This document shows, piece after piece, positions 5,634-8,430 of a stretch of 64,000 bases of DNA. How positions within the stretch are numbered: the first letter of the stretch is position 1; every line of letters starts with the position of its first letter. The translations under genes and the position numbers were made by a program. Where the stretch lies: contig WGNF01000003.1 in assembly GCA_016124615.1 (NCBI GenBank), forward strand, positions 248,001-312,000. Direction: 5' to 3'. The notes beneath the pieces were generated by a model. It saw only the letters and a program-made list of their open reading frames with translations, was not told the DNA's origin and did not search any database. Source of the stretch: Paracoccaceae bacterium (GTDB lineage Bacteria > Pseudomonadota > Alphaproteobacteria > Rhodobacterales > Rhodobacteraceae).

Positions 5634-5954
5634 ATGACGCATGACTACGACGCCCAACGCCGGGAAACCTTCGACACCTTCGCCGAGGCCGGGGCGGGCC
5701 TGCCCAAAACGGCGGTGGTGGATTTCATCTTCTTCGTCGAGGAGACCGACGCCAACTGGGCCGCGTTCGAGACCGCGCTGAAGGCCAAGGGATTCGCGAC
5801 CCGGCGGCTGGAGGATGGCGAGACGCTGGTGGCCAGTTTCGGCCCGATGCCGGTGACGCCCGAGGCGATCTGGGCGCAGGAACGCGCGGCAACAGAGATT
5901 GCGCTGCGCCACGATTTCTACCCCGACGGCTGGGATATGGATGCCGATGCGTGA
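5634..5954 (+). CDS. RraB-like protein (ribonuclease E inhibitor family)
   Basis: Small acidic protein of 106 residues resembling the RraB family, which in Escherichia coli binds RNase E and modulates mRNA decay. The segment with VVDFIFFVEETDANWAAFE and the later LEDGETLVASFGPMPV match the family pattern. The start at 5634 has a GCGGAGG ribosome-binding site just upstream. The stop overlaps the GTG start of rsgA (GTGA), so the two are translationally coupled. Regulation of RNase E in this organism is inferred from family only. Confidence 0.75.
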   Translation: MTHDYDAQRRETFDTFAEAGAGLPKTAVVDFIFFVEETDANWAAFETALKAKGFATRRLEDGETLVASFGPMPVTPEAIWAQERAATEIALRHDFYPDGWDMDADA

Positions 5955-6973
5955 CCGCGCCGATGGGTGATGGCGGCAACGCCGATCTGGGCTGGTCGGC
6001 GTTCTTCGCCGATCAGGTCACGCCGCAAGAGGCCGCGCTGGCGCCGATGCGGATTGCCACCGTCCACCGCGCCCGGCTGACGGCGCTGTTTCAGGGGGAC
6101 ACGCTTCGCCTGACCCTGCCGGTTCACGCCAAGACCACCGATTTCGCCGTTGGCGACTGGGTGCTGGCCGACCCCTATACGCATCTGTTGCACCGGCGGC
6201 TGGACCGTCGCACGCTGCTGGAACGCCACACCGCCGGGGCGCATGTGCCGCAGCTGATCGCGGCCAATATCGACACGCTGTTCATCGTCACCTCCTGCAA
6301 CGCCGATTTCAATCCGGCGCGGCTGGAACGGTATCTGGCGCTGGCGAACGAGGCGGGCGCCTTCCCGGTGATCGTGCTGACCAAGGTCGATGCCATCGCG
6401 GATGCGCAGGACTACGTGGCGCAGGCGGCGGCGCTGCAACGCGGTCTTGCCGTCGTGACCCTGAACGCCAAGAGCCCCGCGGCGGCGGCGGTGCTGGCGC
6501 CCTGGTGCGGTGCCGGGCAGACGGTGGCGCTGGTCGGGTCATCCGGGGTGGGAAAATCGACGCTGCTGAACACGCTGGCGGGCGAGGGGCAGGGGGTGCC
6601 GCAGGAAACCGGCGCTATCCGCGAGGATGACGCCAAGGGCCGCCACACCACCACGGCGCGGTCGCTGCACGCGATCAGCGGTGGCGGCTGGGTGATCGAC
6701 ACGCCGGGGATGCGCACGCTGCATGTCAGCGACGTCGCCTTTGGCATCGAGGCGCTGTTTGCCGAGATCACCGAACTGGCGCCGCTCTGCCGCTTTCGCG
6801 ACTGCACCCATGCGCATGAACCGGGCTGCGCGGTGCAGGCGGCGGTCGCCTCGGGCGCGCTGGACCCTGAGCGGCTGGCGCGCTGGCGCAAGCTGCACGA
6901 CGAGAACCGCAGCAACACCCCGGCCCCGGTTCGGCCCGGTGGCAAGACCGGCGGGCGCGGCAAGCGGCGGTGA
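5951..6973 (+). CDS. rsgA: Ribosome small-subunit-dependent GTPase RsgA
   Basis: Circularly permuted GTPase that acts late in 30S ribosome maturation. The order is diagnostic: an N-terminal OB-fold region, then G4 (LTKVD), G1 (GSSGVGKST), the G2 region and G3 (DTPGMR), followed by a C-terminal zinc-binding segment (CRFRDCTHAHEPGC). Length 340 residues from the GTG at 5951, which overlaps the upstream stop; an ATG at 5963 is an alternative start. The basic C-terminal tail may contact rRNA. Confidence 0.95.
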   Translation: MTAPMGDGGNADLGWSAFFADQVTPQEAALAPMRIATVHRARLTALFQGDTLRLTLPVHAKTTDFAVGDWVLADPYTHLLHRRLDRRTLLERHTAGAHVPQLIAANIDTLFIVTSCNADFNPARLERYLALANEAGAFPVIVLTKVDAIADAQDYVAQAAALQRGLAVVTLNAKSPAAAAVLAPWCGAGQTVALVGSSGVGKSTLLNTLAGEGQGVPQETGAIREDDAKGRHTTTARSLHAISGGGWVIDTPGMRTLHVSDVAFGIEALFAEITELAPLCRFRDCTHAHEPGCAVQAAVASGALDPERLARWRKLHDENRSNTPAPVRPGGKTGGRGKRR

Positions 6974-6985
6974 GGTGGAAATTCA

Positions 6986-7040
6986 GATATATCTTTAGTC
7001 ACGATATATCTTGAATGCCGATATATCTTGACCTATATCG
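6986..7040 (+). promoter_or_regulatory. Triple-repeat operator and promoter of the PadR/ferric reductase operon
   Basis: The decamer GATATATCTT occurs three times, at 6986-6995, 7003-7012 and 7020-7029, exactly 17 bases apart, followed by a partial match CTATATCG at 7033-7040. Each decamer contains the palindrome GATATATC. A promoter-like pair TTGAAT (7011-7016) and TATATC (7034-7039) with a 17-base spacer lies inside the repeats, so a bound repressor would block RNA polymerase. The predicted transcript start falls close to the ATG at 7046, so the mRNA may be leaderless. Confidence 0.7.
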
Positions 7041-7045
7041 GTCGC

Positions 7046-7621
7046 ATGAAACATTGCATACACACAAGACGACACCACGATGCCCCCGAGGATTGGGGCC
7101 ATCGCGGCGAACACGGCATGGGCATGGGCAAAGGGCGGGGGCATGGCCACGGCCATCGCGGCCGCGGCGGCCGCCTTTTCGACTATGGCGAATTGCGGCT
7201 GTTGCTGCTGGCGATGATCGCCGAGCGGCCGAGCCACGGCTATGAGTTGATCAAGCTGATCGAAGAGCGGATGGCGGGCAGCTACAGCCCCAGCCCGGGG
7301 GTGATCTATCCGACGCTCGCCTGGCTGGAAGATATGGGCTACGCGGCGATTGAACCGGGCGAGGGCGGGCGCAAGATTTGCCGCATCACGCCCGAAGGCG
7401 AGGCTTTCGTCACCGCGAACCGCGCGGCGGTGGATGATGTGCTGAACCGCACCGGGCCGCAGGGCCGCCCGCGTCACGCGCCGCAGGCTGTGGCTGAGGC
7501 GATGGACGCGCTGAAAACTGCGCTGCGGGCGCGGCTGGGGCAGGACACAGCCGACGCCGACAGCCTGAGCGCCATCGCCGACATCCTGCGCGACGCCGCG
7601 CGCCGCATCGGGGAAAGCTGA
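7046..7621 (+). CDS. nfeR: PadR-family metal-responsive repressor with His-rich N-terminus (NfeR/YqjI-like)
   Basis: A 191-residue regulator. Residues 1-42 are rich in His and Gly (nine His and one Cys, including GHGHGH), followed by a PadR winged-helix domain (about 45-130: LFDYGELRLLLLAMI, then HGYELIKLIEE and SPGVIYPTLAWLE) and a C-terminal helical dimerisation part. This layout matches E. coli NfeR (YqjI), whose His-rich end binds nickel and whose target is the neighbouring ferric reductase NfeF (YqjH). The next gene here is of the NfeF family and overlaps by one base. Autoregulation through the triple repeat upstream is likely. Confidence 0.85.
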   Translation: MKHCIHTRRHHDAPEDWGHRGEHGMGMGKGRGHGHGHRGRGGRLFDYGELRLLLLAMIAERPSHGYELIKLIEERMAGSYSPSPGVIYPTLAWLEDMGYAAIEPGEGGRKICRITPEGEAFVTANRAAVDDVLNRTGPQGRPRHAPQAVAEAMDALKTALRARLGQDTADADSLSAIADILRDAARRIGES

Positions 7622-8430
7622 TGCGGGGCGATGCTGCGGGCCTGCCGGTGCCGGACCTGTCGGGTCTGGCCGCGCGAGAGGGCATGGACCCGGTCATCAC
7701 CCGCCACCGGCATGAGGTGAAACGCCGGACCCTGACGGTGCTGAGCGCGACACGGATCACCCCGAACATGCTGCGGATCGTGTTCGGGGGCGAGGATCTG
7801 GCCGATTTCACCAGCCTCTCGCCTGACGACCATGTCAAACTGATCGTTCCGGGCGCCGGGGACCAGCCCGAGATGCGCGACTACACGCCGCGCGCCTTCG
7901 ACGCTGCGGCGCGGCGGCTGACCATCGACTTCGCCCTGCACGAGGCGGGGGCTGCCACGCAATGGGCGCTGGCAGCCAAGCCCGGCGACCGTTTGCAGAT
8001 CGGCGGGCCGCGCGGGTCGGCGGTGGTGACGGCAGCCTTCGACTGGTGGCTGCTGATCGGCGATGAAACCGCCTTGCCCGCGCTGGGGCGGCGGATCGAG
8101 GAACTTCCGGCGGGAACCCGGGTGACCAGCCTCGGCCTTGTGACCGCCGCCGAAGAAGAGCAGCGGTTCGACACAGCGGCCGAGCTGACGGCGCTGTGGC
8201 TGCATCGCCCGGCGGCGGCGGTGGCCGACCCCGCGCCGGTGATCGCGGCGCTGGAACGGTTGCAACTGCCCGAGGGCCGCGGGTTCATCTGGATCGCCGC
8301 CGAAGCCGGGGTTGCGCGGGCGGCGCGGGATCATTTCCTGACCCGGCGCAATCACCCGCGCGGCTGGCTGAAAGCCGCGGGCTATTGGGTCAAGGGCGTC
8401 GCGGACGGCCACGACAAGATGCTGGACTAA
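7621..8430 (+). CDS. nfeF: Siderophore-interacting protein / NADPH-dependent ferric-chelate reductase (NfeF-like)
   Basis: FAD-dependent cytoplasmic reductase that releases iron from imported ferric siderophores. The 269-residue product has the FAD-binding motif RDYTPR (about residues 86-91) and the C-terminal siderophore-interacting domain with WIAAEAG and a final tryptophan-containing GYWVKG. Start overlaps the stop of the PadR regulator (TGATG). A strong hairpin directly after the stop closes the two-gene operon. It is longer at the N-terminus than some relatives; a later start within the first 20 codons is possible. Confidence 0.88.
   Translation: MRGDAAGLPVPDLSGLAAREGMDPVITRHRHEVKRRTLTVLSATRITPNMLRIVFGGEDLADFTSLSPDDHVKLIVPGAGDQPEMRDYTPRAFDAAARRLTIDFALHEAGAATQWALAAKPGDRLQIGGPRGSAVVTAAFDWWLLIGDETALPALGRRIEELPAGTRVTSLGLVTAAEEEQRFDTAAELTALWLHRPAAAVADPAPVIAALERLQLPEGRGFIWIAAEAGVARAARDHFLTRRNHPRGWLKAAGYWVKGVADGHDKMLD

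Follow-up and report, generated by a model that had tools for sequence, protein, structure and literature searches.

A 17-bp tandem box array at the predicted leaderless promoter of an NfeR-like padR gene

What does a run of short repeats do between two genes, when one of them encodes a transcriptional regulator? We analysed a 64,000-nt stretch of Paracoccaceae bacterium DNA (the window), in which such a run occupies much of the 72-nt gap (6974-7045) between the genes of an RsgA-like GTPase and a PadR-family protein (Table 1). An earlier note, made from the sequence alone, had described three repeats exactly 17 bases apart at the promoter of an nfeR-like gene. The repeats are as described, starting at 6986, 7003 and 7020: GATATATCTT occurs three times on the plus strand (6986-6995, 7003-7012 and 7020-7029), in steps of 17 and 17 bp. 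When the window was scanned on both strands with up to one mismatch, five matches were found, every one at the array; two of the five were minus-strand readings of the palindrome. In shuffled windows, 0.24 matches were expected, and five were reached in none of 100 shuffles. We then scanned the genome assembly (4,253,162 bases, 93.8% complete). Exact GATATATCTT was present in three copies, only at the array, and the reversed control word in none. Because of the excess over shuffled sequence and the lack of any further exact copy in the genome, we conclude that the array is not a product of chance.

The palindromic core GATATATC has seven sites in the assembly, three at the array and four elsewhere, and its reversed control has two. 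The four off-array sites were considered as further targets and rejected, since each of them lies within a mechanically called open reading frame. A second exact two-box array (partner within 30 nt) was not found in this genome.

The genes on the downstream side agree with the assignment as nfeR-like. The PadR product scored 52.5 bits against PF03551 (cut-off 27) and is 40% identical to E. coli NfeR over 142 columns. An NfeF-like reductase gene adjoins it, whose product is 35% identical to E. coli NfeF over 250 columns. The two genes are codirectional, and the padR stop overlaps the reductase start (TGATG, 7619-7623). A His-rich N-terminal extension is the defining mark of NfeR, and residues 1-42 of the PadR product contain nine His and one Cys. 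The structure model of this protein (mean pLDDT 74.7, pTM 0.53) is confident from about residue 45 to 130 and reliable for the winged helix only; its Foldseek matches are PadR structures. The model was dropped as a route to operator recognition, a single chain being uninformative on dimer packing on DNA. In the genus survey, this genome was the only one of seven to give a match at E≤0.001; in the family survey, 11 of 295 genomes did so, and seven of these (this one counted) reached E≤1e-29. The locus is therefore patchy in its distribution.

Table 1. Features of the array region (window positions) and single-frame padR-reductase loci (positions within each locus)
Feature	Locus	Position	Strand	Remarks
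Upstream neighbour, RsgA-like GTPase	Window	5951..6973	+	PF03193
Operator box 0 (predicted)	Window	6986..6993	+	GATATATC, then TTTAGT; extra box in 17-bp register
Operator box 1 (predicted)	Window	7003..7010	+	GATATATC; abuts predicted -35; arrangement as in 32 class A loci
Predicted -35	Window	7011..7016	+	TTGAAT; 17-nt spacer to 7034
Operator box 2 (predicted)	Window	7020..7027	+	GATATATC; inside predicted promoter spacer; 17 bp past box 1
Predicted -10	Window	7034..7041	+	TATATC (7034-7039); with following G reads as half operator box
Start codon ATG and predicted transcription start (leaderless)	Window	7046..7048	+	6 nt past -10; inferred
PadR-family repressor, NfeR-like, 191 aa	Window	7046..7621	+	PF03551, E 5.1e-14; PadR fold
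His-rich N-terminal tail, residues 1-42	Window	7046..7171 (coding)	+	Low confidence in model
Siderophore-interacting protein (SIP)/NfeF-like reductase	Window	7621..8430	+	PF04954, PF08021 (SIP, FAD_binding_9)
PadR-reductase in one frame	L008	1477-2733
PadR-reductase in one frame	L010	703-1998	-
PadR-reductase in one frame	L015	1495-2802
PadR-reductase in one frame	L021	2450-3730
PadR-reductase in one frame	L026	2459-3790
PadR-reductase in one frame	L045	2447-3709

To follow the box beyond this genome, we gathered homologous loci by protein alone, through a family search and a species-genome collection (best 80 of 589 relatives). The resulting set of 88 loci consists of 87 protein-found loci with an HMM E≤1e-30 and the E. 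coli locus, added by accession. The counts exclude duplicates of the window locus (L001-L003, L111), L083, which belongs to the species of L040, and loci in which no PadR frame reached HMM E≤1e-30; the protein-found cases of this last kind are L011-L014, L016 and L017. In this set, which includes the best 80 of 589 relatives, every locus but L084 (87 of 88) had the box upstream with up to one mismatch, and 81 had exact GATATATC; two boxes stood exactly 17 bp apart in 43. Addition of 13 pattern-found loci gave a set of 101 (likewise including the best 80 of 589 relatives), with a 17-bp pair in 51 and a 16-bp pair in eight. The loci are kin to one another, so these counts are not independent trials.

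The same picture emerged from an even sample of the class, in which a homologue at E≤1e-20 was detected in 49 of 385 genomes. The box was present in 48 of the 49 loci, 46 by the scan and two (L137 and L153) as an exact box found with a corrected anchor. By the scan count, 40 of 49 had an exact box, 12 a 17-bp pair and six a 16-bp pair. Box density at these loci was about 17 times higher upstream (87 in 22,050 nt) than elsewhere (28 in 122,174 nt). We also searched the class genomes, blind to genes, for pairs of exact boxes separated by 0-30 nt, and 24 of 385 were positive. A padR gene of the NfeR-like lineage adjoined the pair in all eight genomes with spacing 17, and in 6 of the 16 with other spacings (this count omits second pairs in G635 and G341). 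With shuffled flanks, no spacing between 5 and 60 gave a mean above 0.10 loci, whereas 40 loci were observed at 17 in the same test, the anchor of which missed boxes in 13 loci. Exact boxes were also found outside Pseudomonadota, in Acidobacteriota, Gemmatimonadota and a Melainabacteria MAG, and the box precedes a padR gene in several phyla even where a SIP gene was not detected nearby. From these comparisons, GATATATC is likely to be the operator word of the NfeR-like PadR lineage.

The earlier note had read the repeats as a multi-dimer repressor array, which fits an upstream word that recurs, often in multiples. It had also called the arrangement unusual for a padR gene. As far as the spacing is concerned this does not hold, 17 bp being the commonest spacing in the lineage (43/88, and 12/49 in the even sample); the unusual part is the third box in register. 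Three-box runs at 16-18 bp with up to one mismatch occurred in only 3 of the 101 loci, namely the window, L021 (a Rhodobacteraceae MAG) and L094 (an unassigned MAG), and three exact boxes at 17 and 17 bp in the window alone among the 101, which include the best 80 of 589 relatives. The motifs that follow boxes 0, 1 and 2 are TTTAGT, TTGAAT and TTGACC, so that the 17-bp units are alike beyond the box. The resemblance of TTTAGT to the unit of box plus -35 suggests that box 0 arose by tandem duplication of 17 bp.

Inspection by eye pointed to a second operator style in the class sample, at L150, L152, L155 and others like them. These have a single longer palindrome, about CTAAGATATATCTTAG, which follows a TTG and covers the expected -10; a leader is present, often with Shine-Dalgarno-like sequence.

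A 17-bp pair was present in 57 rows, and in 34 of them box 1 runs straight into TTG[AT]. We defined class A as a 17-bp pair with TTG[AT] directly after box 1; both features are thus conserved by definition. The 34 rows represent 32 loci (L128 duplicates L004, and L129 duplicates L106), mainly alphaproteobacterial; among the other 17-bp rows, L143 duplicates L103. An in-frame ATG was located 25-27 nt past the start of box 2 in 25 of the 32 loci, the seven others being L092, L099, L106, L110, L114, L121 and L134. In 18 of these 25 fitting loci, a TA-hexamer lies exactly 17 nt after the -35 and 6 nt before the ATG. The window has this geometry (TTGAAT, 17 nt, TATATC, 6 nt, ATG 7046), and a start point 7 nt past the -10 would be the A of the ATG. 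At L121 (~1518-1585), the ATG that stands at the leaderless position behind the class A promoter is out of the PadR frame, and the first in-frame ATG comes 39 nt later; an error in the sequence or a short frame upstream would account for this.

The promoter that the earlier note placed within the array can be read among the boxes as TTGAAT/TATATC, with TATATC lying within the 6986-7040 interval of that note, but a strict sigma-70 consensus scan of 6900-7120, which demands T as the sixth -10 base, returned no promoter. Across the 25 fitting loci, column counts at -12 to -6 were T20 A22 T21 A19 T21 C19 G22. The hexamer thus has C as its sixth base in 19/25 and is followed by G in 22/25, and reads as half of GATATATCG. 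C at this position is compatible, too, with an operator half-site in place of a -10. The two roles can be compatible, and the repressor would shut such a -10.

No Shine-Dalgarno sequence precedes ATG 7046. Ahead of the first in-frame ATG, an SD-like core was found in 2 of 32 class A rows versus 13 of 21 other 17-bp rows; it was found in 36 of 67 rows without a 17-bp pair, where any in-frame ATG was allowed. At L005, an AGGAG core lies immediately 5' of the ATG, outside the range of this count. The geometry of 25/32 loci, together with the rarity of SD-like sequence, gives comparative support to the leaderless transcript that had been predicted for the window. GTG or TTG at 24-28 nt was absent from the 34 class A rows and from the other 17-bp rows; in a wider set, which took in starts located 24-28 nt past any box, GTG or TTG made up 4 of 55. 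Codon 2 was AAA in 15 and AGA in four of the 25 fitting loci, while overall codon use in the same genes was 33 AAA versus 96 AAG, with AGA making up 8 of 400 Arg codons. The A fraction of codons 2-6 was 0.51 in the leaderless type versus 0.27 in 59 SD-type rows. An unstructured mRNA start was rejected as a leaderless mark, since mean predicted folding of the first 40 nt was alike in both types (-6.99 kcal/mol in the leaderless and -6.66 kcal/mol in the SD type).

We also considered a start at TTG 7028, which would give the longest open reading frame, and rejected it. This codon overlaps the third repeat (7020-7029) and lacks support from homologues, and the proteins begin with MK or MR at the equivalent ATG in 22 of the 25 fitting class A loci; ATG 7046 is therefore preferred. 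A quick tree, from which L137 and L153 were left out as too short, was weakly resolved: 60 of its 130 forks stayed open. It placed 29 of the 32 class A loci in a 47-row group with support 89, yet required 13 changes, and class A is thus not one clean clade.

The DNA itself shows the array, the gene order, the recurring box with its spacing, and the distances between the promoter elements and the ATG. In our judgement, the array probably serves as operator and promoter for a metal-sensing PadR repressor of NfeR type, which would regulate itself and a cotranscribed siderophore reductase, with a leaderless start; protein binding, the metal, repression, cotranscription and the 5' end are the parts that we infer. 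Repressor dimers would occupy the GATATATC palindromes at 6986, 7003 and 7020. Boxes 1 and 2 would lie over the edge of the -35 and over the spacer, with TATATCG, the -10, acting as a half box; because these elements overlie the promoter, bound dimers would exclude RNA polymerase, and one or two dimers may be enough to do so. A step of 17 bp is about 1.6 turns and rotates the box centres by ~223 degrees (at 10.5 bp per turn). Adjacent dimers would then sit on nearly opposite faces, and dense packing without collision would be possible. The third box would add occupancy and could make repression tighter or more cooperative. Metal bound at the His-rich tail (nickel, by analogy with E. coli) would lift repression. 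The mRNA would then start with the A of ATG 7046, or one to two nucleotides away from it, and would be translated without a leader or Shine-Dalgarno sequence.

A stronger proposal, which we regard as evenly balanced, is that operator, promoter and start codon are fused into a rigid module of ~43 nt in a mainly alphaproteobacterial NfeR-like group. The 17-bp box spacing would equal the -35/-10 spacer, with the half-box -10 and the leaderless ATG in fixed register, and further complete units of 17 bp could be added at the upstream end of the module, as in the window. If this is true, the same few bases would set repressor occupancy, promoter opening and ribosome entry.

The operator could also be the same and the promoter a different one, with TATATC in box 2 (7022-7027) as -10, a start near 7034 and an SD-less leader of ~10-12 nt before ATG 7046. 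A T is found 23 nt upstream of the box 2 TATATC in 24 of the 25 fitting class A loci, the box is often at the expected place of the -10 in leadered relatives (by eye), and the TATATC at 7034 has C as its last base. In addition, mRNAs without a leader form a minority, amounting to 7% in Methylorubrum extorquens DM4 according to an excerpt of PMC9320726. However, this promoter would have a poor -35 in the window (TCACGA, 6999-7004), and its short leader would have no Shine-Dalgarno sequence. Also against it is the TTGA after box 1, which is not mirrored on the left flank and hence lies outside the palindrome, and which has a TA-hexamer 16-18 nt downstream in all 25 fitting loci. We consider this short-leader promoter unlikely, though it deserves more weight than the alternatives below.

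It is very improbable, in our view, that another regulator, such as an iron regulator, binds the array while the PadR protein works elsewhere. E. coli yqjH (nfeF) is under Fur as well, judging by the title of a cited study, but the box is associated with padR genes across phyla, also where a SIP gene was not detected nearby, and the genome has no further exact two-box array. We give hardly any credence to a chance or functionless AT-rich repeat, for example a recent 17-bp tandem duplication. The likeness of the three units beyond the box means that the third copy may well stem from duplication; the pair at 17 bp, however, recurs in distant genomes, and the 10-mer GATATATCTT is absent from the rest of this one.

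With the autoregulatory operator-promoter as the preferred reading, the upstream word and the gene pair are of the known NfeR kind. Three features may be new: the rule of tandem boxes 17 bp apart, the union of this rule with a leaderless promoter in a group made up mainly of Alphaproteobacteria, and the third box. Among the literature matches listed (titles and abstract starts), neither these features nor such an array appeared, and overlap with the E. coli NfeR studies is possible. For GATATATC, none of the matches listed dealt with PadR by title, and a search for the PadR family with tandem palindromic operators returned no match. The box word and the 17-bp phasing form a simple operator rule, which could allow target prediction in many genomes for a widespread, little-studied lineage of metal repressors. 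The locus is also small enough to serve as a test bed for leaderless expression under regulation, and offers a natural comparison of two boxes with three.

Two further observations stand apart from the array. One of the four off-array GATATATC sites of this genome (L125, position 1501; contig C9, 7242) is a lone box at 44 nt ahead of the gene for a solute-binding protein (SBP_bac_11). This box, which has no partner, is likely due to chance, and a second target is possible. In six related loci (Table 1), PadR and the reductase (FAD_binding_9 and SIP) share one open frame of ~418-443 codons, a predicted fusion, by sequence, of the repressor with the enzyme that it should control. Four of them (L008, L010, L015 and L021) have an internal Met at the reductase start, from which separate initiation is possible. 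L016 has a shared frame by HMM scan but no Pfam PadR hit. A literature search returned no publication that combines PadR, siderophore-interacting protein and fusion.

Among known systems, the solved PadR structures (B. subtilis PadR with operator DNA, 5x11; Rv3488, 5zhc; LmrR, 3f8b) resemble the window protein in their winged-helix fold, as shown by Foldseek and sequence matches. These regulators have operators of the ATGT-N8-ACAT type, which differ from GATATATC, and to our knowledge none of the three proteins has a His-rich tail. Also comparable with the window are the class A padR loci of Kaistia (L020), Shinella (L036), Gluconacetobacter (L047) and Paracoccus (L045), where box 1, TTG[AT], box 2, the TA-hexamer and ATG follow in near-identical register; unlike the window, they lack a third box in the 17-bp register. 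The next gene in class A varies and may encode SIP, DUF2218, an O-methyltransferase or an MFS transporter. In four class A loci, a SIP gene was not detected nearby (L020, 2953-3285; L032, 2950-3891; L047, 2992-3609; L029, 3100-4413), and the next genes there encode DUF2218, DUF2218 fused to an O-methyltransferase, an O-methyltransferase or an MFS transporter. We regard these as candidate partners in metal or siderophore handling.

Another known relative is E. coli NfeR (YqjI), which represses nfeF and is relieved by excess nickel, according to an excerpt of PMC7981267. It shares with the window the PadR domain, the adjoining NfeF reductase gene and, as a sequence match only, GATATATC upstream of both nfeR and nfeF. 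The arrangement is different. E. coli nfeF and nfeR (yqjH and yqjI) are divergent with a gap of 287 nt, whereas the window pair is codirectional and overlapping, and E. coli nfeR has an AGGAGG-type leader, whereas none is predicted for the window gene. Before E. coli nfeR, GATATAAA and GATATATC are 11 bp apart, which differs in helical phase from the 17 bp that separate the three boxes of the window; GATATATC stands before nfeF, with GATATGTC between. The E. coli intergenic region reportedly contains two communicating promoters. Divergence with communicating promoters, which the window pair does not share, is a trait of the E. coli locus and not of the protein family.
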